In this document: in pieces, positions 5,991-24,798 of the stretch
How the letters are laid out: each line of letters opens with the position of its first letter
How positions within the stretch are numbered: the stretch's first letter is position 1
From: Gammaproteobacteria bacterium
Lineage (GTDB): Bacteria; Pseudomonadota; Gammaproteobacteria; GCA-001735895
Length of the DNA: 32,451 bases
Direction of reading: 5' to 3'
Assembly: GCA_024638385.1 (NCBI GenBank)
Contig: JAHEKJ010000034.1
Span: 1 to 32,451 of the forward strand
Position numbers and translations under genes: made by a program
The notes under the pieces: generated by a model
What the model was told of the DNA's origin: nothing
The model's input: only the letters and a program-made list of their open reading frames with translations
Database searches by the model: none

Positions 5991-6339
5991 CTAATTATAC
6001 CCTGGGCGCGCAATCTCCGCATGCTGAATTGCTGACTGATCGCTTGCCTCGTCCCCGGGCTGCCTTCGCGTCGGCTACCTTCTGTTTTATGCGGGGATGG
6101 TAACACGATTGCGGCGGATTGCAGCACCCGCGCGACCTCCAGACCCACGCCAACCATCCCGTCAGAATCCCCCGCGACCCGGGCACGCGGCGCCTGCATT
6201 CCGCCGCGATGTTCCCTATAATTCCAGCCAGGGGCGCGGCCGACGGCATCTCGGCAACCGTCGTGCCGGCAACCAGGGCGTGCGGACCGGCGGGGGATTC
6301 CGGCATGAACATCTTAAGACCAAGCATCCGGCGGCCGGC

Positions 6340-7560: not shown

Positions 7561-8409
7561 TCAGGACCGGACGGCGGCGTCCGGGCGCAACAGGTCGATC
7601 ATTCGCCCGGCCTCGGCGGTCACCGCCGGCATGACCCGGCGCATGATCGTCAGCCGGTCGAACAACTCCGGGTCGGCGGCGAGCGTCTCGCGCAGCGCAT
7701 CACCGAAACTGCGGCGCACCGTGGTGCCGATATTGAACTTGCAGACGCCGCCGCGCGCGAGTCGCACCAGGTCCGCCTCGCGGATGCCGCTGGTGCCGTG
7801 GATCACGAGCGGCAGGTCCACGCATTCCAGCAGCGCGTCGAAACGCGTGAAATCGATCTCGGCGGCCTGGGTCTGCAGGCGGTGGACGTTGCCGACCGAG
7901 ACCGCGAGCGCGTCGGGATCGCCCCGCTCGGCCATCGCGATCGCGTCGTCGATCGCCGTCAGCTCGGACTTGATGTGATCGCGGCCGCTGGCGTAGGGCA
8001 CCGAGCCGACCTCGGCCTCGACCGAGACCCCGCGCGGGCGGGCGTAGTCGACGACCCGGCGCACGCCGGCGACGTTGTCGTCGAGCGGCAGCTGCGAACC
8101 GTCGTACATGACCGAGGTAAATCCCGCGTCGACCGCGGCGAGCACGGTGTCGATCTCGTAGTTGTGATCGAGATGCAGGCACACCGGCACCGCGGCGGCC
8201 TCGGCCAGCGGGTTGAACAGGCCGACGATGCTGTCGAGCGACATGAAGTCGAGCATGTCGAGGTTGACCGCGAGGATCACGCCGGTGCCGCGCGCCTCGG
8301 CGGCGTCGACCACCGCGCGCGCGTCCTCGTAGCCGAACACGTTGAAGCAGCCGACCGCGTAGCCGCCGGCGCGCGCCGGCGGCAACAAGTCCCGTAAATT
8401 GGCCCGCAT
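7561..8409 (-). CDS. iolJ: class II fructose-bisphosphate-type aldolase, IolJ-like
   Basis: Zinc-dependent aldolase of 282 residues. Metal and catalytic residues are visible in HLDH (H79, D81, H82), EAEVG (131-135), GNVH (H176) and VIHGTSG (H204), and the phosphate-binding KFNIGT is at 224-229. The SVEAEVGSV segment and the overall length resemble Bacillus IolJ, which splits 2-deoxy-5-keto-gluconate 6-phosphate into dihydroxyacetone phosphate and malonate semialdehyde. Placement as the last gene after an IolB-like isomerase and a PfkB kinase supports this. It starts 4 bases after the isomerase stop. A tagatose- or fructose-bisphosphate aldolase role for a related substrate remains possible, since operon B appears to carry its own aldolase domain. 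Confidence 0.85.
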   Translation of the reverse strand: MRANLRDLLPPARAGGYAVGCFNVFGYEDARAVVDAAEARGTGVILAVNLDMLDFMSLDSIVGLFNPLAEAAAVPVCLHLDHNYEIDTVLAAVDAGFTSVMYDGSQLPLDDNVAGVRRVVDYARPRGVSVEAEVGSVPYASGRDHIKSELTAIDDAIAMAERGDPDALAVSVGNVHRLQTQAAEIDFTRFDALLECVDLPLVIHGTSGIREADLVRLARGGVCKFNIGTTVRRSFGDALRETLAADPELFDRLTIMRRVMPAVTAEAGRMIDLLRPDAAVRS

Positions 8410-8413
8410 GAAC

Positions 8414-9253
8414 TTACTTGAACTTGCTGATCATGTCCTTGATGCCCGGAATGGTCTCGAGCTGGTAGGCATGTTCGGGGTGGAAGAACTGGTGCAGCGG
8501 CCGCTGCGACTGGCCGGCGAGAACCGTGAAGTAATACATTTCGTAGCCCGGCGCGGAGACGCAGGGATGGTAGCCTTCGTCGATCAGGATCGTCGAGCCG
8601 TTGCGAATGTGGTAGACCTCGCCCATGTCCTCGCCGTCGCCGGTCAGAAACTGCGCGCCGAAGCCGTGCTCGGGATTGAAGCGGAAGTTATAGACTTCGT
8701 CGTGGCGGGTCTCCTCCGGCAGGCTGTCGGTGTCGTGCTTGTGCGGCGGAAAGCCGGACCAGCCGCCGGCGCCGACGGTGAACAGTTCGCTGACCAGCAG
8801 TCGCCCCACCTGCCCGGGCGGCGACTTGCCGAGGATGTGCTTGATCTTGCGGTGCGTCTTGGTGTCGTCCGAGCCGTACTGCACCGGGTCGATGTCGGCC
8901 TCGCGCACGACGAAGGGCGCGTAGACCTCGTCGTGGCGGGCGCCGGCGACGAAGACTTCGACGGCGTCGCTGACACAGGTGATCTCGGCGGCGGCGCCGA
9001 CCGGCACGTAGACGCCCTCGGGTTCGCGCTGCCAGATGTGTTCGCGGTGGCCCACGGCGTCGAAGGTCTGCCCCATGACGGCGACGTCGACGCTGCCGGT
9101 CGCCGGCACGATACAGGTCTCGTAACCGTCGACCTGCGAGACGAAGGATTCGCCGCGCTTCAGCTTGACGATATTGAAGTAACACAGCGGAACCCGCTCG
9201 TTGTCGCGATCGACGATCGCCTCGTTGTGGTTGTCGTAATGTGGAATATGCAT
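8414..9253 (-). CDS. iolB: divergent IolB-family 5-deoxy-glucuronate isomerase
   Basis: Bicupin isomerase of 279 residues. The metal-binding set HKHD (H171, H173), E180 in LPEE, and H229 in GYHP is intact, and the FPPHKHD-LPEE core identifies the IolB/KduI-like family. It is clearly different from the canonical IolB at 19504-20307. The canonical LEETYYH block reads RHDEVYNF here, and the block VYTDDRSLDETM and the C-terminal HNDPAHEW are replaced. It therefore probably acts on a related deoxy-uronate or keto acid, or is an old paralogue. ATG at 9253 (MHIPHYD) lies 2 bases after the kinase stop. It sits between kinase and aldolase in operon A. Confidence 0.8.
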   Translation of the reverse strand: MHIPHYDNHNEAIVDRDNERVPLCYFNIVKLKRGESFVSQVDGYETCIVPATGSVDVAVMGQTFDAVGHREHIWQREPEGVYVPVGAAAEITCVSDAVEVFVAGARHDEVYAPFVVREADIDPVQYGSDDTKTHRKIKHILGKSPPGQVGRLLVSELFTVGAGGWSGFPPHKHDTDSLPEETRHDEVYNFRFNPEHGFGAQFLTGDGEDMGEVYHIRNGSTILIDEGYHPCVSAPGYEMYYFTVLAGQSQRPLHQFFHPEHAYQLETIPGIKDMISKFK

Positions 9254-9255
9254 GT

Positions 9256-10242
9256 CTAGCTCCAGTGGGATGCGGGCTGCATCCGGTTGTCTCGCTGCAC
9301 CGCGGCGAGTTGCGCCGGGTCGGGCATCGCCGCGCCGCAGCCGCGGCGCGAGACCGCGAACGCGGCCGCCGCGCTGGCGGCGGCGATCGCGCGCTGCCAG
9401 TCGCCGTCGGCGTCGAGGTGAACGATCAGGTTGCCGAGGAAGGCGTCGCCCGAACCGTAGGGTTTCAGCGCCGGCAGCGGGTAGATGCCCGAGTCGAGGC
9501 GGCCGTCGTCGACGAATACGCTCGAGCCGGCCGCGCCGCGCTTCTGCACCATTACCTGCCCGCGCGCACGGCAAGTGGCAGCCAGGCGCTCGATATCGTC
9601 GTCGAGCACGGCGAACTCCTCGTCGTTGCCGACCAGCACCTGCGCCGCGGCCGCGGCCTCGGCATAAACCTCGCGGGTCTGCTCCGGCGACGGCCAGTTC
9701 CACGCGCGGTAGTCGAGGTCGAACCAGATCCGGCAGCCGTGTTCGCGCGCGGATAGCATCGTCGCCGCGACCGCCGCGCGCGAGGCCGCGTCGATCAGGC
9801 TGGTGCCGGTCACGACCAGATGCGAGGTGCCGGCGAGCGCCGCGTCGACGGCCGGGGTAAAACGATAGGCCAGGTCCGCCGGGTCGTTGCGGTAGATGAC
9901 GACCTCGCAGTCGGCGGCGCGCACCTCGGCCAGCGCCAGGCTCGTGCGCTCGTTGCCGCGGGTCTCCGCTACCAGCTCGAGCTCGACGCCGAGGCCGGCC
10001 AGGCGCGCGCGGACGAATTCGCCGACGCCGTCGGCCGACAGCGCCGACAGCAGCCCGACGCGGGCGCCGGCGCGCGCCATCGCCGCGGCGATGTTGCCGG
10101 CCGAACCGCCGAGATCGGCGGCGAAGGATTCGGCCTCGGCGAGGCGGCAGCCATCGGGTTGCGGGTACAGATCGAGCCCGGCCCGGCCGAGCACCAGCGC
10201 GAGGCGCTCGCGCGACCTGGACCGGGTCGCCGGCTCAGACAT
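9256..10242 (-). CDS. iolC: PfkB-family kinase, 5-dehydro-2-deoxygluconokinase-like (single domain)
   Basis: Sugar-acid kinase of 328 residues. The N-terminal GRAGLDLYPQP (19-29) and GGSAGNIA (45-52) parallel the IolC in operon B, and the C-terminal catalytic motif is GSGDAF (263-268, Asp266 as base), a Ser variant of the usual GAGD. The segment FDLDYRAWNW (174-183) corresponds to DIDYRPNLW of canonical IolC. It lacks the C-terminal DUF2090 domain found on the second IolC. The first 10 residues are polar and poorly conserved. The gene overlaps the upstream dehydrogenase by 8 bases. Context (isomerase and aldolase downstream) implies phosphorylation of 2-deoxy-5-keto-gluconate or an analogue. 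Confidence 0.82.
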   Translation of the reverse strand: MSEPATRSRSRERLALVLGRAGLDLYPQPDGCRLAEAESFAADLGGSAGNIAAAMARAGARVGLLSALSADGVGEFVRARLAGLGVELELVAETRGNERTSLALAEVRAADCEVVIYRNDPADLAYRFTPAVDAALAGTSHLVVTGTSLIDAASRAAVAATMLSAREHGCRIWFDLDYRAWNWPSPEQTREVYAEAAAAAQVLVGNDEEFAVLDDDIERLAATCRARGQVMVQKRGAAGSSVFVDDGRLDSGIYPLPALKPYGSGDAFLGNLIVHLDADGDWQRAIAAASAAAAFAVSRRGCGAAMPDPAQLAAVQRDNRMQPASHWS

Positions 10243-11359
10243 CGACCCACTCCCCGGACAGAGCCGAGCGGTCGATCGCGTCCATGACCCGCTCGATCTT
10301 GATGCCGTCGGCGAACGCGGGCCAGGCCGGCTCGCCGGTCTCGATCGCGCGCAGCAACTGGCGCAACTCGCAGACCTTGACGTCGATAAAGCCGAGGCCG
10401 TGGCCGGCGTTCGGCAGGAAGGCGGCGTAGGGTTCGTGGTACTGGCCGGACAGGATCGTGCGGAAGCCCTGTTGCCGCGGGTCTTCGCTGCGGGTGTAGA
10501 GCTGGATTTCGTTGAGCCGCTCCTGGTCGTGACAAATCATGCCCTGCGCGCCGTGGATCTCCCAGCGCAGGCCGCACTTGCGCCCCCAGGCGACGCGGCT
10601 GACCCGCAGCGTGCCCTTGATGCCGCTGGCGAAATGCGCCAGCGCCATGCAGACGTCGTCGTTGTCGACGTTGCGCAGCCGGGCGGGGTCGACCGGGTCG
10701 CGGCGCTCGCGGTGCACGGTGTCGTAGTCGCCGACGACCCGGGTGATTTCGCTGCCGGTCATCAGGTGCGCCATGCTGACGAGGTGGCACATGACGTCGG
10801 CGTTGGCGCCGGTGCCCGAGGCTTCGCGGCTCATGCGCCAGCTGAACGGGCGCTCGGGGTCGGCCTCGTTGTCGACGTCGTAGACGCCGTGAAAACCGAT
10901 CACGCGGCCGATCGCGCCCTCGTCGATCAGGTCGCGCGCCGCGCGCACCAGCGGGTTCTGCGTGTAGTTGTAGCCGAGCAGCGTCTGGCAATCCGAGCCG
11001 CGCGCCGCGGCGAGCATCGCCTCGGCCTCGGCGACGCTGGTCGCCATCGGCTTTTCGCACCAGACGTGCTTGCCCGCGGCGAGCGCGGCGACCGCGATTT
11101 CGCGGTGCATCGCGTTGGGTACGCAGATGGAGATCAATTCCACCGCCGGGTCGGCGACGACGTCGCGGTAATCCGTGGTCGCGCGGGCGAAACCCATCTC
11201 GGCCTGTTTCGCGCGCACGCGCTCGGCATCGATATCGCACAGCATTTCCAGGCGCGGGCGCAAGCCGTCGCCGAATACCGTGCCGGCGGCGGCGTAGGCG
11301 ATCGAATGCGCCTTGCCCATGAACGCGGTGCCGATGACACCGATGCCGATTTCTTTCAT
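10235..11359 (-). CDS. Gfo/Idh/MocA-family dehydrogenase (inositol/sugar type), operon A copy
   Basis: NAD(P)-dependent oxidoreductase of 374 residues. The Rossmann motif GVIGTAFMGKAH (7-18) is followed by the catalytic lysine in CEKP (K103) and the active-site pair D188 and H192 in ADVMCH. It aligns along its length with the protein at 22264-23373 (shared AVGAVF/AAGTVF, GLRPRLEM, GFARATTD/GFSRATAD, LLGYNY/MVGYNY, AGHGLGF/AGHGTGY), so the two divergent operons carry paralogues. The start at ATG 11359 is chosen because the fold begins at residue 4; an upstream extension has no such support. Its likely role is oxidation of an inositol isomer, an inosose or a sugar entering operon A. The exact substrate is unknown. 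Confidence 0.85.
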   Translation of the reverse strand: MKEIGIGVIGTAFMGKAHSIAYAAAGTVFGDGLRPRLEMLCDIDAERVRAKQAEMGFARATTDYRDVVADPAVELISICVPNAMHREIAVAALAAGKHVWCEKPMATSVAEAEAMLAAARGSDCQTLLGYNYTQNPLVRAARDLIDEGAIGRVIGFHGVYDVDNEADPERPFSWRMSREASGTGANADVMCHLVSMAHLMTGSEITRVVGDYDTVHRERRDPVDPARLRNVDNDDVCMALAHFASGIKGTLRVSRVAWGRKCGLRWEIHGAQGMICHDQERLNEIQLYTRSEDPRQQGFRTILSGQYHEPYAAFLPNAGHGLGFIDVKVCELRQLLRAIETGEPAWPAFADGIKIERVMDAIDRSALSGEWVDV

Positions 11360-11474
11360 CCGTTGTCTCGATCGAATGCCAAATCGATTCTTGCCTTCAA
11401 AATGCCGGTCGCCGGGGCCGCATTCGGGCTCCAACTATACCAACATCTCGAACATCCCATTACTCCAGCCGAAA

Positions 11475-12263
<789 letters not shown>

Positions 12264-12264
12264 G

Positions 12265-13389
12265 TCATCGCTCCCCCGTGATGATGCGGCGAATATAGGT
12301 GTTCAGAATGACCGCGAACAGCAGGATCACGCCGAGGAATACGCGGAACAGAGAACTTTCGACACCGGCGAAGAACAGGCCCTGCTGGACCACGCCGAAT
12401 ATCAGCGCCCCGAGCGCCGCGCCGATGACCGAGCCGTAACCGCCGGTCAGCAGCGCGCCGCCGATGACGACCGCGATAATGGCCTCGAATTCCTTCAGCA
12501 GTCCGCGGTCGGCGCCGGCCGAACCGAATTCCATCACCTGGCAGGTGGCGAAGACCGTCGCGCAAAAGGCGGTGAACATGAACATCAGGATCTTGACGCG
12601 ATTCACCGGCACACCGGTGTAGCGGGCCGCCTGGGCATCGCCGCCGGCAGCGAAAATCCAGTTGCCGAAACGGGTCCGGGTCAGCAGCACGTGGCCGAAG
12701 ATGACCAGTACGATCGCCCAGACGATCAGCATCGGCACGCCGTCCACCACCGGTTGCCCGGCGCGGGTACCGCGCTCGAAGGTCGCGATGATGCCCGCCT
12801 CGCCCATCCACTGAAACGCCCCGGTGAAGATCTTGCCGCCGAACAGCGGCGCCAGCCAGTCGCCCTGTGCCGTGTCCCGGATGCCGCCGATGATGGTTTT
12901 CCGTTCGATCGTCTGCGGCAGATAAATCGTAAAACCGCGCAGGATGAACAGGAATGCCAGGGTTACGATGAAGCTCGGCAAGCCGGTGCGCACGACGATA
13001 TATCCGTTGAGGGCGCCAATCGACAGCGCCAGCACGAAGGTAACGAGAATCGCCAGCCAGATCGGCCAGCCCAGCACCACGCCGAATATGGCGATCATCA
13101 TGCCGGCGAAACCGATCATCGACCCGACCGACAGGTCGAATTCGCCGGCGATCATCAACAGGCAGGCGCCGACGGCGATGATCATGAACTGGGCCGAAAC
13201 CTGGCTCCAGTTCATGATGCCCTGGGAGTTGAACATGCCGCTGTCGAAGGCGAACAGCAGAAACAGCGCGAATACGACGATCGTACCCACTATGCCGCCG
13301 AGTTCGGGGCGGATCATGGCTTCGCGCAAGCGGGACCGCTGTTTGACCCGTTCGTCTTCAGCGGCGGTTGGTGGCGTTGTGTCTGACAT
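12265..13389 (-). CDS. CUT2 sugar/inositol ABC transporter permease
   Basis: Polytopic inner-membrane protein of 374 residues, BPD_transp_2 family. A polar N-terminus of about 30 residues precedes the first helix ([18 protein letters not shown]). The hallmark GEFDLSVGS occurs after the second or third helix, [11 protein letters not shown] in the middle, and the ATPase-contacting [15 protein letters not shown] near the C-terminus. A loop of about 60 residues between helices (around residues 150-210) is longer than in FrcC. A GAGG ribosome-binding site lies 8 bases before ATG 13389. Substrate is inferred as a cyclitol from the neighbouring operon genes. Confidence 0.9.
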
Positions 13390-13424
13390 ATCCGAACCTC
13401 GATTGATTTCGAATCTGTTGAAGT

Positions 13425-13458
13425 GGCGGGCAGCCGGTCGATGCCCGGCCGCCCCGCC
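13425..13458 (-). promoter_or_regulatory. intercistronic stem-loop after the operon A binding-protein gene
   Basis: Imperfect GC-rich hairpin between the binding-protein stop and the permease start: outer stem GGCGGG/CCCGCC (6 pairs), a 2-by-3 internal loop, inner stem GCCGG/CCGGC (5 pairs) and a 7-base loop. No T-run follows. It occupies the same place as the stem-loops after frcB and after the gtsA-like gene. Confidence 0.6.
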
Positions 13459-13468
13459 TCAGGCCGGT

Positions 13469-14425
13469 CTAGCGGTATTCACCCGCATACTTTTCCACCA
13501 TCTCCAGTGCGTCGGCGGTCACGAAACCGGGACCGGAGTTGATGTTGTTGCCGGGCAGCACGCCGTAGCGGTGGTAGTTGGTCATCACCACGACCGGCAG
13601 GTAAGCCTGCAGGAAGGGTTGCTGATCGATGCCCCACTCGATAATGCCCGCCTTGATGCCCTTGACGATTTCCTCGCCCAGATCGAAGGTGCCGAAGTAA
13701 ATGTCCCCGGCCATGCCGTTTTCCTGCAGGGCCTGCATGGTCGGATCGGCCGACACCGGTCCCAGCGTCAGTATGGCCTCGGTCTTCGGGTTGGCGGCAA
13801 GATAAGCCTTTACCTTGTTCTTGATTTCCGACGGGTCGGTGCCGCTGTCGAGCATCGAATTGCCGAGCTCGATGCCGAGGCCGTCGGCAAATCCGCGGCA
13901 GCGTTCGCCCAGGGTCGGTTGCTGAATCGAGTGGTTGACGCAAAGAAAGCTGCCGATGCCGTCACCCTTCGCGCGCAGGCCGGCGGCGTAGCCGGCGTCG
14001 TATTCGGGCTGACCCACGTACATCAGCGCGCCGACCTCGCGCGCCTGATCCGGCGTGCCCGTGTTCATGATGATCACGTCGATACCGGAGGCAACCGCGT
14101 TCTTGATGGGTCCTTCGAGTACGTCGTAGTCGGCCAGGGTGGTGATGATGCCGTTCGGTCCGGACGCGGCCGCCTGGTCGATGATGCGCGCCATGTCGGC
14201 GATGTCACCGGTCGGCGGGTTGCGATACTCGACGTCGACGCCCATTTGCTTGCCGGCCAGGGCGATGCCGTTCTTGATCGTGTTCCACCAGGAATCGGAA
14301 TCGGGCGCATGGCTGACGAGGATGTATTTTTCGCCGGCGGCCGAGACCGATGTCGAAATCAGTGCGAGAGGAGCCGCGACCGCCAGTGACAAGGCAGCCG
14401 CCGTCCATAGTTTCATTTTTTTCAT
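13469..14425 (-). CDS. periplasmic sugar/inositol-binding protein, Peripl_BP_4 family
   Basis: Solute-binding protein of 318 residues. The Sec signal peptide (MKKMKL, hydrophobic core, SVSA-AGEK, cleavage after about residue 29) is clear. The mature protein opens YILVSHAPDSDSWWNTIKNG, the first strand and ligand loop of the ribose/inositol class, with later TTLADYDVLEGPI and the conserved AILTLGPVSAD. A strong GGAGG ribosome-binding site lies 5 bases before ATG 14425; a second ATG at codon 4 is less well spaced. It is the first gene of operon A, divergent from the RpiR regulator, so probably controlled by it. Similar proteins occur beside iol genes in rhizobia; inositol as ligand is an inference. 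Confidence 0.88.
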   Translation of the reverse strand: MKKMKLWTAAALSLAVAAPLALISTSVSAAGEKYILVSHAPDSDSWWNTIKNGIALAGKQMGVDVEYRNPPTGDIADMARIIDQAAASGPNGIITTLADYDVLEGPIKNAVASGIDVIIMNTGTPDQAREVGALMYVGQPEYDAGYAAGLRAKGDGIGSFLCVNHSIQQPTLGERCRGFADGLGIELGNSMLDSGTDPSEIKNKVKAYLAANPKTEAILTLGPVSADPTMQALQENGMAGDIYFGTFDLGEEIVKGIKAGIIEWGIDQQPFLQAYLPVVVMTNYHRYGVLPGNNINSGPGFVTADALEMVEKYAGEYR

Positions 14426-14831: not shown

Positions 14832-15656
14832 ATGGCCACCGTCATCGAACAGGAACCGCCGCGGGTATTCAGTCAATTGAAACCCTGGCTGCAGGAGCAC
14901 TTCACCGCATTGCCCAAGCGGCTGCAAAGCGTGGCCGTTTTTGCGCTGCATAATCCGGATATCATCGCGCTGAATACGATTGCCGTGATCAGCGAAAAGG
15001 CCGAAGTGACGCCGTCGACGCTGGTCAGATTCGCCAAGTCGATCGGCTACAGAGGTTTTTCCGACATGCAGGAAGTATTTCAGGAAAGCATGCGTCACAT
15101 GCCGCAGCCGTATACCCAGCGCCTGCATCGGCTCGAAGACGCCGGCGCAGCCGAGCAGACCGTATTGCATCGATTCAGCCGCGCGGCCGCGGCCTCGATA
15201 GACCGGCTCGAGCAGCAGGTCGACGAGCAGGCGATCAAACAGGCGAGCCGGCAACTGGCCGCGGCGCGGACGATTTATATTGCCGGTCAGGGCAGGGCCA
15301 CGCCGGTGACGACTTATTTGCACTACACCCTGATCAAAATGGGCCTGCAAGCGGTACTGTTGGACGGCATCGCCTCGACGTTCTCCGACAAGACCCGGCT
15401 GATTCGCCGCGACGAGATTCTGATCGCGGTCAGTTTCAGTCCATATACCGCGAATACCCGCGAGATCGTGGATATTTGTCTCGCGCAAAAGGTCCCGGTG
15501 GTCGCAATAACCGATTCCACGCTGAGTCCGATCGCGCGATCGGACGATTTGCATCTCGAGGTGCTCGAGGAAGAGGTCGGCGGCATTCGCGGGCTATCGG
15601 CGACCATGTGTCTCGCGCTCTGTCTCGCCGTCGAAACCGGCAAGCTGGCCTCGTGA
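14832..15656 (+). CDS. iolR: MurR/RpiR-family transcriptional regulator, IolR-like
   Basis: DNA-binding regulator of 274 residues. An N-terminal HTH_6 domain (about residues 14-90, with LNTIAVISEKAEVTPSTLVRF and RFAKSIGYRGFSDMQ as the recognition region) is followed by a SIS domain (about 125-265) that normally binds a phosphosugar. GQGRATPVTTYLHY marks the start of the SIS fold. It stands between the divergent operons and immediately before iolC, the place taken by rhizobial RpiR-type IolR, a repressor relieved by a late inositol intermediate such as 2-deoxy-5-keto-gluconate 6-phosphate. The start at ATG 14832 is the first codon with family-like sequence and leaves the operator and -10 box upstream. 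Confidence 0.9.
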   Translation: MATVIEQEPPRVFSQLKPWLQEHFTALPKRLQSVAVFALHNPDIIALNTIAVISEKAEVTPSTLVRFAKSIGYRGFSDMQEVFQESMRHMPQPYTQRLHRLEDAGAAEQTVLHRFSRAAAASIDRLEQQVDEQAIKQASRQLAAARTIYIAGQGRATPVTTYLHYTLIKMGLQAVLLDGIASTFSDKTRLIRRDEILIAVSFSPYTANTREIVDICLAQKVPVVAITDSTLSPIARSDDLHLEVLEEEVGGIRGLSATMCLALCLAVETGKLAS

Positions 15657-15729
15657 AAGCATTCGAGACAGCCCCGTGTCGGTCCCGCTTTCGCCGGCGA
15701 TCGGATGAGTATTATTGCGAGGCGACGTT

Positions 15730-17634
15730 ATGAAACCTGATCTGGACGTCATCTGCATCGGCCGCGCCGGCGTCGATTTGTACGGTCAACAGGTCGGCGG
15801 TCGTCTCGAGGATATGGCCAGTTTCGCCAAGTACGTCGGTGGCAGCCCGACCAATACGTCGATCGGCGCCGCGCGTCTCGGCCTGAAGTCGGCGCTGCTG
15901 ACCCGGGTCGGCGACGAACACATGGGGCGATTCATTCGCGAAACCCTCGAGTCGGAGGGTGTCGACACGAGCAACGTGATCACCGATCCCGAGCGCCTGA
16001 CGGCCCTGGTGTTGCTCGGCATTCAGGACGAGAAGCGCTTCCCGCTCATTTTCTACCGTGAAAACTGTGCCGACATGGCGCTGTGCGAGGACGATATCGA
16101 CGCCGGGTTCATCGCCCGCAGCCGCGCCGTCCTGGTGTCGGGCACCCATCTGAGCACCGCCCGGGTCGCGGCCGCAAGCCACCGGGCGATGAAACTGGCG
16201 CGGGCCAATGGCGCCAGGGTTGCGCTCGACATCGACTACCGCCCCAATCTGTGGAATCTCGCCGGCCATGGCGAAGGTGAATCGCGGTTCATCGCCGATC
16301 AGGGCGTCAGCCGGCACTTGCAGAATTACTTCGGCGACTGCGATCTGATCGTCGGGACCGAGGAGGAATTTCACATTGCCGGCGGCAGTGAAGACAGTCT
16401 GCAGGCGCTGGCCAACGTGCGCGCGCTCACCGACGCGACCCTGGTCTGCAAGCGCGGGGCGCTGGGCTGCCGCGTGTTCGAGGGGCGGATCGATGGTTGG
16501 GAATCGGGGGTCGCGGGACCGGGTTTCAGGGTCGAAGTGTTCAACGTGCTGGGCGCCGGCGACGCCTTCATGGCCGGAATACTCCGCGGCTGGCTGCGCG
16601 ACGAAGACTGGCCAACGACCTGCGCCTACGCCAATGCCTGCGGCGCCCTCGCGGTATCGCGCCACGGCTGTTGCCCGGCCTACCCGTCCGAAATCGAATT
16701 GCTCGGATTCATCGAATCCGGCAGCGAATTCGAGGCGCTCAGATTCGATCGCCGGCTGAATTACATTCACCGGGTCACCAACCGGCGCCGCCGCTACGAC
16801 CGCCTGCTGGTGTTTGCCTTCGATCATCGCCGCCAGTTCGAATCCTGGGCCGCGGACCACGCCAGGCAGCGGGATGCGATCGGCCGATTCAAGCAACTCG
16901 CATGGCAGGCCGCCGCCGCGGAAGGCGAGCAAGATCGCGGCTTCGGCGTTCTGGTGGATGACCGGCTGGGGCGCGAGGCCCTGCATGCCGCCACCTCGAG
17001 CGGCGCCTGGGTGGGCAGGCCGATCGAAGCATCGGGCCAGTTTCCACTCGCTTTCGAGGCCGACGGTGAACTGGCCGAACACCTGGCGGACTGGCCGGTG
17101 ACGCAGACGGTCAAGGTGCTCTGTCCGTACCGAATCGACGATGACGCGGGCATCCGCGATCATCACGAAAGCATGATTCTTAAGCTGGATCGGGCTTGCC
17201 GCCACAGCGGGCACGAATGGTTGCTGGAAATCGTCACCGCGCGCGATGGCGGCCACCCGCAATTCGATACCGTGGCGGAAATCATGTCCCGTTTCTACGA
17301 AATCGGGGTAAAGCCCGACTGGTGGAAACTCGAGCCCGGGCCGGCGGAGGAATACTGGCAAGCGATCGGGGCGGTGATCGAAGCCAACGACGCTTATTGC
17401 CAGGGCGTGATCGTGCTCGGTCTCGACGGCAGTATCGAGTCGATTTCGAAAACCTTTGAAGCGGCCGCGCGGCAATCCCGGGTCAAGGGGTTCGCGATCG
17501 GCCGCACGATTTTCGGCGAATCGGCCCGATCGTGGCTGGCCGGGCGAATCGACGACGCCACCGCGGTAGCGCAAATGCGCGCCCGTTACCGGGAACTGAT
17601 CGCTGCCTGGGACGAGGTCCGCGCGCAAGTATAA
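15730..17634 (+). CDS. iolC: bifunctional 5-dehydro-2-deoxygluconokinase / DUF2090 aldolase-like protein
   Basis: Two-domain protein of 634 residues. Residues 1-330 are a PfkB kinase: GRAGVDLYG (11-19), GGSPTNTSIG (37-46), DIDYRPNLW (167-175) and GAGDAF (275-280, catalytic Asp278). Residues about 345-634 are a DUF2090 domain, related to class I-type TIM-barrel aldolases, with FAFDHR (362-367), LEIVTARDGG and DWWKLEP; K533 in the last is a possible Schiff-base lysine. Such fusions are annotated as kinase plus 5-dehydro-2-deoxyphosphogluconate aldolase, which would phosphorylate and cleave the same intermediate. The ATG at 15730 has a GAGG site 8 bases upstream; a TTG 15 bases earlier is unlikely. 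It is the first catabolic gene of operon B. Confidence 0.92.
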   Translation: MKPDLDVICIGRAGVDLYGQQVGGRLEDMASFAKYVGGSPTNTSIGAARLGLKSALLTRVGDEHMGRFIRETLESEGVDTSNVITDPERLTALVLLGIQDEKRFPLIFYRENCADMALCEDDIDAGFIARSRAVLVSGTHLSTARVAAASHRAMKLARANGARVALDIDYRPNLWNLAGHGEGESRFIADQGVSRHLQNYFGDCDLIVGTEEEFHIAGGSEDSLQALANVRALTDATLVCKRGALGCRVFEGRIDGWESGVAGPGFRVEVFNVLGAGDAFMAGILRGWLRDEDWPTTCAYANACGALAVSRHGCCPAYPSEIELLGFIESGSEFEALRFDRRLNYIHRVTNRRRRYDRLLVFAFDHRRQFESWAADHARQRDAIGRFKQLAWQAAAAEGEQDRGFGVLVDDRLGREALHAATSSGAWVGRPIEASGQFPLAFEADGELAEHLADWPVTQTVKVLCPYRIDDDAGIRDHHESMILKLDRACRHSGHEWLLEIVTARDGGHPQFDTVAEIMSRFYEIGVKPDWWKLEPGPAEEYWQAIGAVIEANDAYCQGVIVLGLDGSIESISKTFEAAARQSRVKGFAIGRTIFGESARSWLAGRIDDATAVAQMRARYRELIAAWDEVRAQV

Positions 17635-17663: not shown

Positions 17664-19502
17664 ATGGGGACAATTCGACTCACCGCCGCGCAGGCGATAA
17701 CGCGATACCTGATCAACCAGTTCGTGCGCCTGGACGACGGTTCCGAACTGCCGCTGTTTGCCGGCGTCTGGGCCATTTTCGGTCACGGCAACGTCGCCGG
17801 ACTCGGCGAGGCGCTATACCACGTGCAGGATCAGCTGCCGACCTATCGCGGCCACAACGAGCAGAGCATGGCGCACGCGGCAATCGCTTATGCCAAGGCG
17901 AGGCGCCGCCAGCAGATCATGGTGGCGACCTCGTCGATAGGTCCGGGCGCAACCAACATGGTAACCGCCGCCGCGGTGGCGCACGTCAATCGAATTCCCC
18001 TGCTGTTGATTCCGGGTGACGTTTTCGCCTCGGGATTGCCCGACCCGGTGCTCCAGCAGGCCGAGGATTTTGCCGATGGCAGCGTCAGCGTCAACGACGC
18101 CTTCCGCCCGGTGAGCCGTTACTTTCACCGCATCACGCGCCCGGAGCAACTGGTGCAGGCCTTGCCCCGGGCCATGGTGGCGCTGACGGATCCCGCTTAC
18201 TGCGGCCCGGCCACGATCAGTCTCTGCCAGGACGTGCAGTCGATGGCCTTCGATTTTCCCGAGGCCCTGTTCGAACGGCGCAGCCGGAGCCTGCGGCGGC
18301 CGGCGCCGGACGCGGACGAACTGGAACAGGCGCGCGACGCGCTGCGAGCGGCGCGCAAACCGGTCATCGTCGCCGGTGGCGGCGTACGCTACTCGCGCGC
18401 CGAGGCCGCTTTACAGGCATTCGCCGAAGACCACCGGATTCCCGTGGTCGAGACCCAGGCCGGCAAGTCCTCGCTGCCGGCCGGGCATGCGCTCAACTAC
18501 GGCGCGGTCGGCGTCACCGGCGTCAGCTGCGCCAATGAGCTGGCGCGCGCGGCCGACCTGGTGCTGGCGGTCGGCAGCCGCCTGCAGGACTTTACCACCG
18601 GCTCCAACAGCCTGTTCAAGGGCCGCGTCATTCAGCTCAACGTGCAGGCAATGGATGCGGCCAAATACCGCGCCCAGCCCTGCATCGCGGATGCGCGGGT
18701 CGGTCTCGAAACGATTTCCGCGGGACTGGGCGACTACCAGGCCGATGCGCAATGGCTGGCTTTTGCCGATCAGGCGCGCGAGGAATGGCTCGGCGTCCAG
18801 CGCCAGCATGTCGAGGCGACCGACGACCAGACCATACCGAGCGATGCCCAGGTCGTGACCGCGGTCAACCGCAGCGTGCCGCAGGATGCGATCGTCGTCG
18901 CCGCCGCCGGCAGCCTGCCGGCGGAACTGCACAAACACTGGAACAGCGCCGATGTCGGGGGCTACCACCTCGAATACGGTTATTCCTGCATGGGTTACGA
19001 AATTGCCGGCGGGGTCGGGGTCAAGCTGGCCGAACCCGAGCGCGAGGTCGTGGTCCTGGTCGGCGATGGTTCGTACCTGATGCTGAATTCCGATATTGCC
19101 ACCGCCGTAAGCCTGGGTCTCGAGCTGACCGTCGTGGTGCTCGACAATCGCGGCTTCAGCTGCATCAATCGCCTGCAGATGGCGACCGGCGGCGCCAACT
19201 TCAACAACCTGTTGCGCGATACGCGCAATCAGGGCCTGGCCGAAATCGATTTTGCCGCGCACGCGGGCTCGATGGGTGCCCGCGCCGAACAGGTCGAAAC
19301 CATCGGCGAGTTGAAAGCGGCGGTGGCCGCGGCTTCGTCGCGCGACGGCGTCAACGTGATCGTCATCGATACCGATCCGGTGCACTCGACCCCGGGGAAT
19401 TGCTGGTGGGAAGTCGAGGTGCCGGAAGTGTCCGCGCGCAGCGAGGTGGTCGACAAGCACCGCGCCGCGGTGGCAACGCGGATTCGTGAGCGAGGATACT
19501 GA
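17664..19502 (+). CDS. iolD: 3D-(3,5/4)-trihydroxycyclohexane-1,2-dione hydrolase IolD
   Basis: Thiamine-diphosphate enzyme of 612 residues that opens the inositol-derived ring to 5-deoxy-glucuronate. The cofactor-activating glutamate is E66 in YRGHNEQSMAHAA. The central FAD/nucleotide-like domain follows (about 205-330, VIVAGGGVRYS). The ThDP-Mg motif starts at GDG (467-469) and ends 26 residues later at N495, with D468 and N495 as metal ligands. C-terminal NCWWEVEVPEVS is typical of IolD. A GAGGA ribosome-binding site lies 8 bases before ATG 17664. It is followed at a 1-base gap by the canonical iolB. Family and length match well. Confidence 0.96.
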   Translation: MGTIRLTAAQAITRYLINQFVRLDDGSELPLFAGVWAIFGHGNVAGLGEALYHVQDQLPTYRGHNEQSMAHAAIAYAKARRRQQIMVATSSIGPGATNMVTAAAVAHVNRIPLLLIPGDVFASGLPDPVLQQAEDFADGSVSVNDAFRPVSRYFHRITRPEQLVQALPRAMVALTDPAYCGPATISLCQDVQSMAFDFPEALFERRSRSLRRPAPDADELEQARDALRAARKPVIVAGGGVRYSRAEAALQAFAEDHRIPVVETQAGKSSLPAGHALNYGAVGVTGVSCANELARAADLVLAVGSRLQDFTTGSNSLFKGRVIQLNVQAMDAAKYRAQPCIADARVGLETISAGLGDYQADAQWLAFADQAREEWLGVQRQHVEATDDQTIPSDAQVVTAVNRSVPQDAIVVAAAGSLPAELHKHWNSADVGGYHLEYGYSCMGYEIAGGVGVKLAEPEREVVVLVGDGSYLMLNSDIATAVSLGLELTVVVLDNRGFSCINRLQMATGGANFNNLLRDTRNQGLAEIDFAAHAGSMGARAEQVETIGELKAAVAAASSRDGVNVIVIDTDPVHSTPGNCWWEVEVPEVSARSEVVDKHRAAVATRIRERGY

Positions 19503-19503
19503 G

Positions 19504-20307
19504 ATGAGCCGATTACTGGTCAAACCGGCCGCGCGTCAACCGGTTCAGCGCATCACGCCGGACAGCGCCGGCTGGAAGTACGTCGGCTTCGAATTGTACG
19601 ACCTGGATGCCGGCGAAGAACTGGAGCTGCAGCAGGACGGGCGCGAACTATGCCTGGTCGTCTTATCCGGCACCGCCCGGGTCGAGGTCGCGGCGCAGCG
19701 CTGGGATGAAGTCGGCGGCCGCGGCTCGGTGTTCGAAGACCGGGCCCCCGGCGCGGTTTACGTGCCCGCCGGCGAGGCCGCGCGGGTCGCGGCGCAATCG
19801 CCGCTCGAGCTTGCCGTATGCAGCGCGCCGGGGACGGGGGCAAGCGGGCCCGCGCGCCTGATCGAGGCTGCGAAAATGTCGCGCGAGGTGCGGGGCAAGG
19901 GTACCAACACGCGCCACGTGCGCAATATTCTGCCCGAGACCGAGCCGGCGGATAATCTACTCGTGGTCGAGGTCATTACGCCGCCGGGTCACTGGTCTTC
20001 CTATCCGCCGCACAAGCACGATCGCGACGCCCTGCCCGAAGAAAGCCGGCTCGAGGAAACCTATTACCATAGACTCGACCCGTCCAGCGGCTACGTGCAT
20101 CAGCGGGTTTATACCGACGATCGCAGCCTCGATGAAACCATGAGCGCCGAGGATCGCGACGTGGTGCTGGTGCCCGAGGGTTATCATCCCGTCGGCGTGC
20201 CGCATGGCTATACCAGTTACTATCTGAACGTGATGGCGGGGCCGGTGCGGGAATGGCATTTCCACAACGACCCGGCGCACGAGTGGATCATCGAGCAGGC
20301 AGGTTGA
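19504..20307 (+). CDS. iolB: 5-deoxy-glucuronate isomerase IolB (canonical)
   Basis: Bicupin isomerase of 267 residues converting 5-deoxy-glucuronate to 2-deoxy-5-keto-gluconate. Conserved blocks are RHVRNILPE (137-145), WSSYPPHKHD (164-173; metal ligands H170 and H172), E179, LEETYYH (183-189), VYTDDRSLDETM (202-213), GYHPVGVPHGYTSYYLNVMAGP and the C-terminal HNDPAHEW. These match Bacillus IolB closely. ATG at 19504 follows the IolD stop by one base with GAGGAT upstream; a GTG 18 bases earlier would overlap iolD and is less likely. This is the working IolB of operon B, in contrast to the divergent copy in operon A. Confidence 0.95.
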   Translation: MSRLLVKPAARQPVQRITPDSAGWKYVGFELYDLDAGEELELQQDGRELCLVVLSGTARVEVAAQRWDEVGGRGSVFEDRAPGAVYVPAGEAARVAAQSPLELAVCSAPGTGASGPARLIEAAKMSREVRGKGTNTRHVRNILPETEPADNLLVVEVITPPGHWSSYPPHKHDRDALPEESRLEETYYHRLDPSSGYVHQRVYTDDRSLDETMSAEDRDVVLVPEGYHPVGVPHGYTSYYLNVMAGPVREWHFHNDPAHEWIIEQAG

Positions 20308-20311
20308 GCCG

Positions 20312-21211
20312 ATGCAACTGAAATTCGGCATGTCCCCGATTTCGTGGACCAACGACGACCTGCCGCAGCTCGGCGGAGACACTTCGCTCGAAACCTGTCT
20401 GCGTGAAACCCGCCAGGCCGGATACTCGGGCACCGAAATGGGCGGCAAGTTTCCCCGCGACGAAGCGTCGCTGCGTCGGGTGCTGGCGGCACACGACCTG
20501 AAACTGGTTTCGGGCTGGTATTCCGGGACCCTGCTCGACAACACGGTGGCGCGCGAGATCGAACGCATCAAGCCGCAGCTCGAGTTGTTCGCCGCGCTCG
20601 AAGCCCCGGTTATCGTCTACGGGGAAACCTGGCAGACGGTGCAGAATCGCCGGGACCAGCCGCTGCAAAACAAACCGCTGCTGGCGGAGGCGGAATTTCC
20701 CGCCTATGGCGAACGCCTGACCGGCGTCGCCGAGTATTGCGCCGGGCAGGGGGTGCCGTTGACCTTTCATCACCACATGGGCACCGGGGTCGAGACCGAG
20801 GAAGAGCTCGATCGGGTGATGGCCAATACCGGCGAGGCGGTGGGGTTGCTGGTCGATACCGGTCATCTGCTGTTTGCCGGCGGCGATATACTGGCCGTCA
20901 TTGCAAGATACGGGTCGCGGATCAATCACGTGCACGCCAAGGATATTCGCGCCGAGGTACTGGCCACGGTGAACCGTGAAACCGACTCGTTCCTCGACTG
21001 CGTGCTGCGCGGCGTTTTTACCGTCCCGGGAGACGGCATGATCGATTATCGCGGCGTGATGCAGGCGCTTGCCGAGCAGCGCTACGAGGGCTGGGTCATC
21101 GTCGAGGCGGAGCAGGACCCTGCATTGGCCGATCCCTACGAATACGCCTGTATCGGCTACCGGGCATTGCAACAGGCGGCGCTTGCCGCCGGCTACACGA
21201 TAACCCGGTAG
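20312..21211 (+). CDS. iolE: inosose dehydratase IolE
   Basis: TIM-barrel enzyme of 299 residues, xylose-isomerase-like fold, dehydrating scyllo-inosose to the trihydroxycyclohexanedione used by IolD. Characteristic pieces are FGMSPISWTNDD at the N-terminus, TEMGGKFP, the HHHMGTGVET loop (153-162), LLVDTGHL (179-186), INHVHAKD (204-211) and VIVEAEQDP (262-270). The probable metal ligands include D182, H206 and E265. It follows iolB by 4 bases and precedes iolG by 8 bases, so it is co-transcribed. The identification is firm. Confidence 0.95.
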   Translation: MQLKFGMSPISWTNDDLPQLGGDTSLETCLRETRQAGYSGTEMGGKFPRDEASLRRVLAAHDLKLVSGWYSGTLLDNTVAREIERIKPQLELFAALEAPVIVYGETWQTVQNRRDQPLQNKPLLAEAEFPAYGERLTGVAEYCAGQGVPLTFHHHMGTGVETEEELDRVMANTGEAVGLLVDTGHLLFAGGDILAVIARYGSRINHVHAKDIRAEVLATVNRETDSFLDCVLRGVFTVPGDGMIDYRGVMQALAEQRYEGWVIVEAEQDPALADPYEYACIGYRALQQAALAAGYTITR

Positions 21212-21219
21212 GCGCGGCG

Positions 21220-22218
21220 ATGATCAAATTCGGACTGTTCGGTGCCGGACGAATCGGGTCGATTCACGGTAACAATACCCGGCTTCACCGCGATGCCGAA
21301 CTGGTCGCGCTGCACGATCCGGTGGAGAAAAATTCCGCCCGGCTCGCCGCCGAACTCGGCTGCGAACAATGGACGGCCGAGCGGATTTTCGCCAGCGATG
21401 CGATCGACGCGGTATTGATCTGTTCGGCCACCGATACCCATGCCGGGCTGATCGAGCAAGCCGTCGACAGCGGCAAACACGTGTTTTGCGAAAAGCCCAT
21501 CGACCTGTCGCTGCCGCGCGTGCGGCAGTGCTGCCAGCGCGTTGCCGCCAGTGACATTCGCGCGATGGTGGCCTTCAATCGCCGCTTCGACCCGAATTTT
21601 CGGCGCTTGCGCGAACAACTCGATGCCGGCGCGGTCGGCGAACTCGAAATGCTCGGTATCGTGTCCCGGGACCCGGCGCCGCCCCCGATCGAGTACGTTC
21701 GGGTCAGCGGCGGCCTGTTTCGCGATATGATGATTCACGATTTCGACATGGCGCGCTATCTGCTGGGCGAAGAAATCATCGCGGTCAGCGCGCAGGCTTC
21801 CTGCCTCGTCGATCCGGCCATCGGCGAAGCCGGTGACGTGGATACCGCGGTCGTCACCCTGACGACGACCAGCGGCAAGCTGGCGCAAATCTCGAATAGC
21901 CGGCGGGCGAGTTACGGTTACGACCAGCGCATCGAAATCCACGGTTCCGCGGGAATGCTCGAGGCCCGCAACGTCAACGAGAATACCGTGGTCAGTCATA
22001 CCCGCGATGGCGTCACGGGAGCGAAACCGATGTACTTTTTTCTCGAGCGCTACGCCGCGGCCTATCGCCGCGAACTGGATGAATTCATCCGCTCGCTGCA
22101 GGGTGAGCCGGTCGATTTACCGGGCATGGAAGACGGATTGCAGGCAATGTTGCTGGCCGAGGCGGCCTTGCAATCGCTCGCGCAGGGGCGGTGCGTCAAG
22201 CCCGGTGGAGACGACTAG
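21220..22218 (+). CDS. iolG: inositol 2-dehydrogenase IolG
   Basis: Gfo/Idh/MocA oxidoreductase of 332 residues, the first step of myo-inositol catabolism. GAGRIGSIH (8-16) is the Rossmann loop, and an acidic residue after the second strand (LHDP, D33) fits NAD preference. The catalytic triad is visible as K92 in CEKP and D169 with H173 in RDMMIHDFD, at the positions expected from Bacillus IolG. It is preceded by iolE with an 8-base gap. Four other members of this superfamily lie in the window, but this one has the best match to authentic IolG. Confidence 0.92.
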   Translation: MIKFGLFGAGRIGSIHGNNTRLHRDAELVALHDPVEKNSARLAAELGCEQWTAERIFASDAIDAVLICSATDTHAGLIEQAVDSGKHVFCEKPIDLSLPRVRQCCQRVAASDIRAMVAFNRRFDPNFRRLREQLDAGAVGELEMLGIVSRDPAPPPIEYVRVSGGLFRDMMIHDFDMARYLLGEEIIAVSAQASCLVDPAIGEAGDVDTAVVTLTTTSGKLAQISNSRRASYGYDQRIEIHGSAGMLEARNVNENTVVSHTRDGVTGAKPMYFFLERYAAAYRRELDEFIRSLQGEPVDLPGMEDGLQAMLLAEAALQSLAQGRCVKPGGDD

Positions 22219-22263: not shown

Positions 22264-23373
22264 ATGCCAGAAATAGGAATCGGAATCGTCGGCGGCGGAT
22301 ACATGGGCAAGGCCCATTCGGTGGCCATGGCCGCGGTCGGCGCGGTTTTCGACACCGGCTTGCGGCCGCGACTGGAAATGATCGCCGCGACCAGCGCCGA
22401 CTCGGCCGAAGGCTACCGCCGGGCCTACGGTTTTAGCCGGGCCACCGCCGACTGGCGCGAACTGGTCGACGACGCGCGGGTCGAAGCGGTGATCATCGCA
22501 TCGCCGCAAGCCACGCACCGGGCGATCGCCGAACGCGCCTTCGCCGCCGGCAAACCGGTCCTCTGCGAGAAACCGCTGGGCGCGAGCCTCGAAGACACGC
22601 GCGCGATGGTCGCCGCGGCCGAAGCCTCGGGGCTGGCCAACATGGTTGGCTACAACTATATCCGCACGCCGGCGTCGCAGTTCGTGCGGCAGCTGCTCGC
22701 CGACGGCGCGATCGGCCAGATGACCTGGTTTCGCGCCGAACACACCGAAGACTTTCACGCCGACCCCGGGATTCCCGCCGACTGGCGCAGCCAGGGCGAG
22801 GCCAACGGTTGTCTCGGCGACCTGGCGCCGCACATCGTCAACGCCGCGCTGGCGCTGGCCGGACCGATCCGGGCGCTGACCGCGGAAGTCGAAACCGTGC
22901 ACCCGACCCGCGGCGGAGTCGCGGTCGGCAACGACGACCAGGTGCAGGTCATGTGCCGCTTCGCCAACGGCGTCATGGGTCATTTATTCGCGTCGCGCAC
23001 CGCGACCGGGCGCAAGATGGGATACGCCTACGAAATTACCGGAACCCATGGCGCGATTCGCTTCGACCAGGAAGACCAGAACGCGGTCTGGCTTTACCGC
23101 AGCACGGACCCCGACGCCGAGCGCGGCTTCCGCAAGATACTGACCGGTCCCGCGCATCCCGATTACGTCGAGTTTTGCCAGGGCGCCGGCCACGGCACCG
23201 GCTACCAGGACCAGATCATCATCGAGGCGCGCGACTTCCTGCGCGCCATCGACAGCGGCGAGCCGGTGTGGCCGACCTTTCGCGACGGGCTGGCGGTGGC
23301 CGAGGTCATCGCCGCGATTCGCGCGGCCGATCAGAGCCGCGGCTGGGTAGAGGTAGAGCCGGCCCGGTCATGA
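22264..23373 (+). CDS. Gfo/Idh/MocA-family dehydrogenase, operon B copy
   Basis: NAD(P)-dependent oxidoreductase of 369 residues, paralogous to the operon A protein at 10235-11359. The Rossmann motif GIVGGGYMGKAH is at 7-18; catalytic K103 lies in CEKP, and D186 and H190 in GDLAPH. A strong GGGGGAAGG-type ribosome-binding region precedes ATG 22264. The stop overlaps the next gene by 4 bases. In inositol clusters such extra dehydrogenases often act on scyllo- or D-chiro-inositol or on O-substituted forms. Substrate is unassigned here. Confidence 0.86.
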   Translation: MPEIGIGIVGGGYMGKAHSVAMAAVGAVFDTGLRPRLEMIAATSADSAEGYRRAYGFSRATADWRELVDDARVEAVIIASPQATHRAIAERAFAAGKPVLCEKPLGASLEDTRAMVAAAEASGLANMVGYNYIRTPASQFVRQLLADGAIGQMTWFRAEHTEDFHADPGIPADWRSQGEANGCLGDLAPHIVNAALALAGPIRALTAEVETVHPTRGGVAVGNDDQVQVMCRFANGVMGHLFASRTATGRKMGYAYEITGTHGAIRFDQEDQNAVWLYRSTDPDAERGFRKILTGPAHPDYVEFCQGAGHGTGYQDQIIIEARDFLRAIDSGEPVWPTFRDGLAVAEVIAAIRAADQSRGWVEVEPARS

Positions 23374-24527
23374 GCGGCGCCGTCCACTACGACGAATCGA
23401 GCTGCGATGCGGACGAATTCCGCCGTCTGATCGAGACCCGAACCGACGCCGGCGAGGTCCCGCGGGCAAGCGAAATCGCAGGCAAGATTCCGATCTACGA
23501 TACTGCCGCGCTCGAGCCCGAACTGGCCGGCGCGGCGCGGCCGTCGATTCTGGCGGAGTGGGCGCGCGTGCTCGGCACCGGACCCGGCGTGCTGATGCTG
23601 CGTGGTCTGATCGCGGATGCCGCCGTCGTCGCCAGCGTCAGCCGGGAATTTCGCCGAATCCTCGCCGCCGAGGCCGAAGCTTCGCTCGGCCGGGGCGACC
23701 ATTTTGCCGCCGCCGGACGCAATGCCCGCATCTGGAATTCGGCGCAGAAACTCTGCCTCGCGTCACCCGCCTCGTTTGCACGCTATTTCGGCAACGTCGC
23801 GCTGGCCGCGGTCTGCGAAGCCTGGCTCGGGCCCGGCTACCAGATGACCGCCCAGGTCAACCTGGTCTATCCGGGGGGCGTGGCGCAGCGAGGTCATCGC
23901 GATTACCATCTCGGCTTCCAGTCGCCCGCAACAATGACACGGTTTCCCGCCCACGTGCACGCGCTGTCGCCGGCGCTGACGCTCCAGGGCGCGATCGCGC
24001 ACTGCGACATGCCCATCGCCAGCGGGCCGACCCGGCTGTTGCCGTATTCGCAAACCTATGGCCCGGGTTACCTCGCGACGGCTCGAGAAGATTTCCGCGA
24101 AATATTCGAGGCGCACTGCGTGCAGCTGCCGCTGGCCGCCGGCGACGCGCTGTTTTTCAATCCGGCGCTGATGCATGCGGCGGGGCAGAATCGCAGCGCC
24201 GAGATCGAACGCCTGGCCAACCTGCTGCAGATCTCGTCCGCCTTCGGCCGGGCGATGGAAAGCGTCGATCGCGCGGCCATGTGCAGCGCGCTCTACCCCA
24301 CGCTCGACGCGCTGCGCGGCGAGCTCGGCGAGGCGCGCGTCGCCGCCGCGGTTGCGGCCTGCGCCGAAGGCTACCCGTTTCCGACCAACCTCGATCGCGA
24401 CCCGCCGGTCGACGGACTGGCGCCGCCGAGCCAGGCCGACCTGATGCGCCAGGCGCTCGCCGAACACTGGTCGGAAGATCGCTTCGCCGCCGCGTTGGAC
24501 GCCGGCGAACGGCGGCGCGAACCGTGA
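23370..24527 (+). CDS. phytanoyl-CoA dioxygenase (PhyH)-family Fe(II)/2-oxoglutarate enzyme
   Basis: Putative non-haem iron dioxygenase of 385 residues. The iron facial triad is visible as H176-R177-D178 in GHRDYH and distal H269 in FFNPALMHAAGQNRS, with R281 twelve residues later placed to bind 2-oxoglutarate. VNLVYPGG upstream and GDALFF before the second histidine also fit the PhyH family. The ATG at 23370 overlaps the dehydrogenase stop (ATGA), which implies translational coupling and a shared pathway. The family hydroxylates or O-dealkylates diverse small molecules, so the substrate cannot be read from sequence. A role in removing a substituent from an inositol or sugar is a hypothesis only. 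Confidence 0.75.
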   Translation: MSGAVHYDESSCDADEFRRLIETRTDAGEVPRASEIAGKIPIYDTAALEPELAGAARPSILAEWARVLGTGPGVLMLRGLIADAAVVASVSREFRRILAAEAEASLGRGDHFAAAGRNARIWNSAQKLCLASPASFARYFGNVALAAVCEAWLGPGYQMTAQVNLVYPGGVAQRGHRDYHLGFQSPATMTRFPAHVHALSPALTLQGAIAHCDMPIASGPTRLLPYSQTYGPGYLATAREDFREIFEAHCVQLPLAAGDALFFNPALMHAAGQNRSAEIERLANLLQISSAFGRAMESVDRAAMCSALYPTLDALRGELGEARVAAAVAACAEGYPFPTNLDRDPPVDGLAPPSQADLMRQALAEHWSEDRFAAALDAGERRREP

Positions 24528-24591: not shown

Positions 24592-24798
24592 GTGAACGGC
24601 TTTCTCGGCCTGCACGACCCTTTCTTCCGGCCGGTCTGGCGCCGCATCGTCACGGTCGCGGCGTGCCTCGGCTGGGCCCTGTTCGAATTCGTCGCCGGTG
24701 CGCCGATCTGGGGCGCCCTCTTCGTCGCGCTCGGGGTGGCCGCGGCCTGGCATTTTTTTATCGTTCCCTGGCCCGATGACGGAGATGACAAACCATGA
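24592..24798 (+). CDS. small two-helix membrane protein
   Basis: Tiny hydrophobic protein of 68 residues starting at GTG. A conserved-looking start HDPFFRPVWRR is followed by two predicted helices (about 19-35 and 39-58) and an acidic tail. Its stop overlaps the ATG of the next gene by 4 bases (ATGA), which argues that it is translated. It resembles short proteins that I recall being annotated DUF3329 in proteobacteria, but that link is from memory. Function is unknown; it may be an inner-membrane accessory protein. Confidence 0.6.
   Translation: MNGFLGLHDPFFRPVWRRIVTVAACLGWALFEFVAGAPIWGALFVALGVAAAWHFFIVPWPDDGDDKP

Follow-up and report, generated by a model that had tools for sequence, protein, structure and literature searches.

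The locus described here raised the question of why a gene for a predicted Fe(II)/2-oxoglutarate oxygenase should close a run of genes for inositol catabolism, and of what such an enzyme might oxidise. The window, 32,451 nucleotides long, is part of a gammaproteobacterial metagenome assembly. No earlier description of an inositol-linked PhyH subfamily was found in the literature searched, where a PhyH protein in inositol catabolism appeared solely in an RNA-seq table whose surrounding passages made no remark on the link (PMC6637203).

The oxygenase gene (23370..24527, + strand) encodes a protein of 385 residues, of which residues 73–278 matched PF05721 with 98.9 bits against a cut-off of 22. 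The iron ligands His176 and Asp178, located from homologue alignments, belong to an HRD motif (23895..23903, + strand) within the sequence HRDYHLGFQ, and the distal ligand is His269 (24174..24176, + strand). Arg281 (24210..24212, + strand), the presumed anchor of the 2-oxoglutarate carboxylate, was placed by the spacing typical of the PhyH family. Conservation of these four residues reached 97% or more among 99 aligned sequences, and a 50-sequence alignment of homologues showed no variation at them; the assignment to the PhyH family with an intact HxD...H triad, made in the preliminary description, was thus borne out. The homologue alignments also placed these residues within a strong signature (GDHFA..G.N.RIWN, MTAQ.N...PGG.AQ, and HRDYHLGFQ). 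A chance open reading frame was ruled out, because one scan of GTDB genome contigs confirmed homologues at 417 loci, and the 80 best of these were retained. The start codon matched that of a 64%-identical relative. The open reading frame is a genuine PhyH-family member, predicted from its sequence to be active as an Fe(II)/2-oxoglutarate oxygenase.

The AlphaFold model of the protein, with a mean pLDDT of 88.5 and a pTM of 0.90, had the double-stranded β-helix fold of Fe/2OG oxygenases; its confidence dropped around residues 109–112 and 171–180, close to the metal site. The closest solved folds were the fungal Fe/2OG oxygenases FtmOx1, PrhA, and AsqJ, with Z scores of 21–22 over about 260 residues. 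Sequence identity was 12–19% throughout the solved structural neighbours, KanJ included. Since the nearest folds span several chemistries, the fold confirms the class of enzyme and leaves its reaction and substrate unfixed. The window protein shares the fold, the HxD...H triad, and the 2-oxoglutarate arginine with phytanoyl-CoA dioxygenase, EctD-type, and related enzymes of the PhyH family. However, its profile match to human PhyH was limited to a stretch of some 34 residues surrounding the distal histidine, no NCBIfam model was matched (0 families at an E value of 1e-3), and its genomic role is inositol catabolism.

The oxygenase gene is the last of a tight run on the + strand in the order iolC-D-B-E-G-dehydrogenase-PhyH. 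A regulator of the RpiR/SIS family, likely IolR-like (14832..15656, + strand; PF01418 and PF01380), lies upstream of an IolC kinase fused to a DUF2090/IolJ-type aldolase domain (15715..17634; NF047869, 729.6 bits, cut-off 600). The following genes encode the IolD acylhydrolase (17676..19502 from the start of the model match, longest open reading frame from 17532; TIGR04377, 866 bits, cut-off 715), the IolB 5-deoxy-glucuronate isomerase (19486..20307; TIGR04378, 344 bits, cut-off 205), the IolE myo-inosose-2 dehydratase (20312..21211; TIGR04379, 400.5 bits, cut-off 290), and the IolG inositol 2-dehydrogenase (21220..22218; TIGR04380, 422.9 bits, cut-off 355). The gene directly before PhyH (22264..23373) encodes a Gfo/Idh/MocA dehydrogenase resembling LgdA and scyllo-inositol dehydrogenase. 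Its best PDB sequence match (E value of 9.6e-92) was 5ya8, the scyllo-inositol/L-glucose dehydrogenase LgdA of Paracoccus, which is the nearest solved relative by sequence of this partner; the likeness belongs to the dehydrogenase and not to the oxygenase. All of these iol genes scored above their NCBIfam cut-offs, and this partner is the gene earlier designated an inositol-cluster dehydrogenase.

From IolD on, the junctions consist of a 17-base overlap, gaps of 4, 8, and 45 bases, and a 4-base ATGA overlap, in which the ATG of PhyH (23370–23372) and the TGA of the dehydrogenase (23371–23373) stand exactly at the position and in the frame first described. PhyH therefore ranks seventh among the structural genes of a compact iol operon, which goes beyond a coupling to one dehydrogenase. 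A role of PhyH as a substitute for a core iol enzyme was rejected, since IolB–E, IolG, and IolC all adjoin it in the window and in locus L096. After a gap on the 3′ side of PhyH, genes in the same direction encode an epimerase/isomerase, two Gfo dehydrogenases, and a sugar ABC transporter. A small hydrophobic open reading frame of about 68 codons (24593–24799, + strand) lies between PhyH and the epimerase/isomerase gene and overlaps the start of the latter.

A set of genes on the minus strand (7561–14425), with second partial inositol genes and a rhizopine-type ABC transporter, points away from the main iol operon. The partial iol genes (7561..10242) encode an IolJ-like class II aldolase (7561–8409), an IolB-like protein with an N-terminal extension (8414–9703), and an IolC-like kinase (9256–10242). 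The adjoining block 10235..13389, also on the minus strand, encodes a second LgdA-like dehydrogenase (10235–11434), 43% identical to the first, an ABC transporter ATPase (11475–12263), and a permease (12265–13389). The substrate-binding protein of operon A (13469..14425, minus strand) was closest to the rhizopine-binding family NF052284, with 265.5 bits, below the cut-off of 420. Although the score fell short of membership, this likeness was counted in favour of the earlier proposal that the transporter would fit a role in the use of substituted inositols, the closest family being one that binds rhizopine, an O-methyl-inosamine. Proteins 79–83% identical to the binding protein occurred in the PhyH/iol loci L034, L055, L058, L090, and L096. 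An orphan Rieske-dioxygenase-type ferredoxin reductase (6097–7557, + strand), which has an N-terminal extension of 85 residues, lies between two transporter clusters and has no obvious oxygenase partner.

Among the Pseudomonadota genomes sampled, IolD was encoded in all 27 carriers of the subfamily, compared with 99/397 overall (hypergeometric 2.6e-18, uncorrected for kinship). As a control, genomes with other PhyH proteins had IolD at the base rate (33/126). The test was repeated inside one family with about one genome per genus (150 genomes, 149 genera), which reduced the effect of kinship, and IolD was again present in every carrier (30/30, against a base rate of 82/150; 6.9e-10). Carriers of the subfamily always encoded inositol breakdown, with no exception in the two samples. 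IolD lay within 15 kb of PhyH in 12 of the 27 Pseudomonadota carriers, a proximity for which the binomial estimate ignores kinship between genomes. The converse failed, as the subfamily was present in a minority of IolD genomes (27/99 and 30/82). Strict dependence on IolD, together with absence from most IolD genomes, is the pattern of a peripheral, accessory entry enzyme for an unusual substrate.

Gene neighbourhoods of the PhyH loci were scored with the window proteins as queries. The genes iolE and iolB flank PhyH in Mameliella (L017, L023, L028, and L033) and in L065, L069, L078, and L086; in Mameliella, L065, L069, and L078 the operon order is iolC-iolD-iolE-PhyH-iolB. In L018, L072, L082, and L091, iolB adjoins PhyH. 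The oxygenase gene directly follows iolG in the iolCDBEG-PhyH run of L096, stands at the end of an LgdA-iolG-iolB-iolC-iolD run in L095, and comes after IolG-LgdA in L014/L094, where L014 matches the contig of a same-genus relative (G012). A block like the second partial iol set of the window adjoins PhyH in L022, L037, L040, L045, and L083, with IolG, IolJ-like, IolB-like, IolC-like, IolD, LgdA, and IolE-like genes beside it. A tblastn search returned 47 plasmid records for the subfamily, and PhyH was likewise beside iol genes on annotated plasmids of Tsukamurella, Thioclava, Marinovum, and Paracoccus. On the PhyH gene tree the iol-linked label switched 16 times, at least 8 of the switches being forced by well-supported branches; the count of 16 is approximate, since this was a quick tree with several long branches (L095, L096, L100, and L101). 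Therefore, iol linkage was gained or lost repeatedly.

Among all loci clustered by neighbour, the commonest neighbour of PhyH was a divergent LacI regulator (57/87 loci), followed by LgdA-like and IolD clusters with 11 each. Many copies are thus lone LacI-PhyH or LacI-PhyH-SDR units, as in Sinorhizobium meliloti, and 69 of 99 copies had no iolB, iolC, or iolD match within the fetched flank. The LgdA-like dehydrogenase was adjacent to PhyH in the window and L014/L094; L095 has both genes in one operon, about ten more loci have the dehydrogenase nearby, and most loci lack it. The adjacency proposed in the preliminary description was therefore found, but as a minority arrangement. Local contexts varied, whereas the genome-level link to inositol was exceptionless in both samples, so that the orthologues were not mainly in unrelated contexts and the connection proved wider than had been claimed. 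An SDR of NCBIfam NF004847 (PRK06198) lies downstream of PhyH in L098 (10528–11349) and L100 (10131–10919), where the model was checked, and similar SDRs are found downstream in other loci, L053 and L068 among them. This arrangement recurs in Rhizobiaceae, Thalassospira, and Tsukamurella, and the SDR is likely a pathway partner of PhyH.

The LacI-PhyH intergenic regions had in common a direct repeat, TTGATG..TTTTTGATG... The tandem form TGATGxxTTTTTGATGxxT was observed upstream of PhyH in L022, L040, L042, L097, L098, L105, and others, spanning Rhodobacteraceae and Rhizobiaceae. The repeat is probably an operator, of an unusual form built from direct repeats. A strict version of the repeat (TGATGTG, 2 to 5 bases, TGATGTG) had no other occurrence within 10 kb, and so it gives no tie between the PhyH and iol promoters. 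The conservation of the direct repeat suggests that PhyH has an inducer of its own in those lineages, and a special substrate would explain this more readily than an intermediate of the core pathway.

When Ensifer adhaerens OV14 was on plant roots, expression of nine genes was lowered at all time points between day 1 and day 7 (PMC6637203, Table 1). Among them are the PhyH gene OV14_RS14055, three rhizopine-type ABC transporter genes, and genes for IolG, IolC, and a Gfo/Idh/MocA protein. OV14_RS14055 is very probably the Ensifer orthologue of the inositol-linked PhyH, because the sole PhyH protein encoded on the 3.7 Mb record with the S. meliloti gene belongs to this subfamily, and because the 76% identity between the S. 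meliloti and Agrobacterium proteins fits the 78% given for Ensifer and Agrobacterium (PMC6637203).

The co-occurrence with IolD, the repeated placement in iol operons, and the probable published co-regulation make a dedication of PhyH to inositol metabolism well supported. The enzyme probably makes a modified inositol of plant or algal origin usable by the known pathway. The evidence argues strongly for a cyclitol as the substrate and points weakly to O-methyl as the group removed. The favoured explanation, held tentatively at somewhat below an even chance, is an accessory oxygenase of an inositol-dedicated subfamily that oxidises a modified cyclitol, the likeliest reaction being O-demethylation of an O-methyl-inositol. 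The modified cyclitol would be taken up, and cytoplasmic PhyH would oxidise one of its C–H bonds; IolG or the LgdA-like enzyme would dehydrogenate the product, which would then pass through IolE-IolD-IolB-IolC/J. With ononitol, pinitol, or a similar O-methyl-inositol, hydroxylation of the methyl group would be followed by spontaneous loss of formaldehyde, while 2-oxoglutarate and O2 would yield succinate and CO2.

We know of no established bacterial single-enzyme route from methyl-inositols into the iol pathway. Methyl-inositols are common soluble compounds of legumes and salt-tolerant plants. They also accumulate in legume nodules (PMC8730688). O-demethylation is favoured because it would need no other component, because methyl-inositols are abundant, and because the binding protein in the window resembles rhizopine-binding proteins, albeit below the family cut-off; the accessory, non-core distribution of the subfamily was also counted toward it. 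Several observations count against it. No formaldehyde-handling gene was seen to recur beside PhyH (purU, the one such gene sought in all neighbourhoods, was present at one locus), the structural neighbours differ in their chemistry, many loci have an SDR or Gfo partner for which demethylation has no obvious need, and the copies whose fetched flank had no iolB, iolC, or iolD match are numerous, many of them beside their own LacI.

Four other explanations were weighed and are given in order of decreasing probability; two of them, hydroxylation of a deoxy-inositol and deamination of an inosamine, suit the evidence nearly as well as O-demethylation does and are serious rivals. The canonical PhyH reaction is a stereospecific C–H hydroxylation, which was counted for hydroxylation of the CH2 group of a quercitol- or viburnitol-type cyclohexanepentol directly to an inositol. 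Such a product would enter the iol pathway in one step, in keeping with the strict dependence on IolD and the accessory distribution, but neither the neighbours nor the rhizopine-type binding protein point toward deoxy-inositols, and this reaction appears unlikely. Oxidation of unsubstituted inositol or an inosose, as a side branch or as detoxification of a pathway intermediate, would suit the location of PhyH within the core iol operon of several lineages and the apparent co-regulation in the Ensifer table. It is distinctly unlikely, as PhyH is absent from most IolD genomes and the adjacent LacI and conserved upstream repeat, where present, suggest an inducer of its own.

A deamination like that of KanJ is slightly less likely still. 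Here the amine-bearing carbon of an inosamine would be hydroxylated, ammonia would leave, and the inosose ketone would pass to the paired dehydrogenase. To our knowledge, rhizopine is not used by strains of S. meliloti that lack moc genes, and the presence of the subfamily gene in S. meliloti was weighed against this reading. The kanamycin B dioxygenase KanJ, a PhyH-type oxygenase whose substrate is an aminocyclitol glycoside, works with the reductase KanK (PMC5533434), just as PhyH frequently has an SDR or a Gfo dehydrogenase as its partner, and the binding protein in the window is rhizopine-like. KanJ is also a structural neighbour of the PhyH model (VIA Z score of about 19 over 254 residues, 3.6 Å, 14–15% identity), but neighbours of other chemistries have better Z scores, and the KanJ/KanK context is biosynthetic, unlike the window. 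Finally, an unrelated substrate, with hitch-hiking within sugar clusters, would suit the wide spread of PhyH proteins and the 69/99 flanks, but is improbable given the exceptionless IolD co-occurrence, the base-rate control, and the repeated iol linkage across the gene tree.

MocDEF, a multi-component oxygenase with a ferredoxin and a reductase, has been proposed to bring an O-methylated cyclitol into the iol pathway by oxidative demethylation. The moc genes form the rhizopine catabolic locus of rhizobia (PMC6668481), and this route resembles the role favoured for PhyH, although the class of enzyme differs; no MocD-like gene was present among the window open reading frames scanned. The chances seem evenly balanced that inositol catabolism has a widespread Fe/2OG oxygenase branch, so far unrecognised, by which proteobacteria and some actinobacteria use plant and algal cyclitols that are methylated or modified in other ways. 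Such a branch would be a soluble one-component counterpart of the multi-component rhizopine demethylation. The subfamily is usually annotated as phytanoyl-CoA dioxygenase, so that an inositol role would correct hundreds of annotations, and the candidate could be tested directly in tractable hosts, S. meliloti, Ruegeria, and Mameliella among them. Of the ten PhyH-family genes in the genome to which the window belongs (G000), three lie on contig C213, and the window copy alone matched the inositol-linked subfamily.
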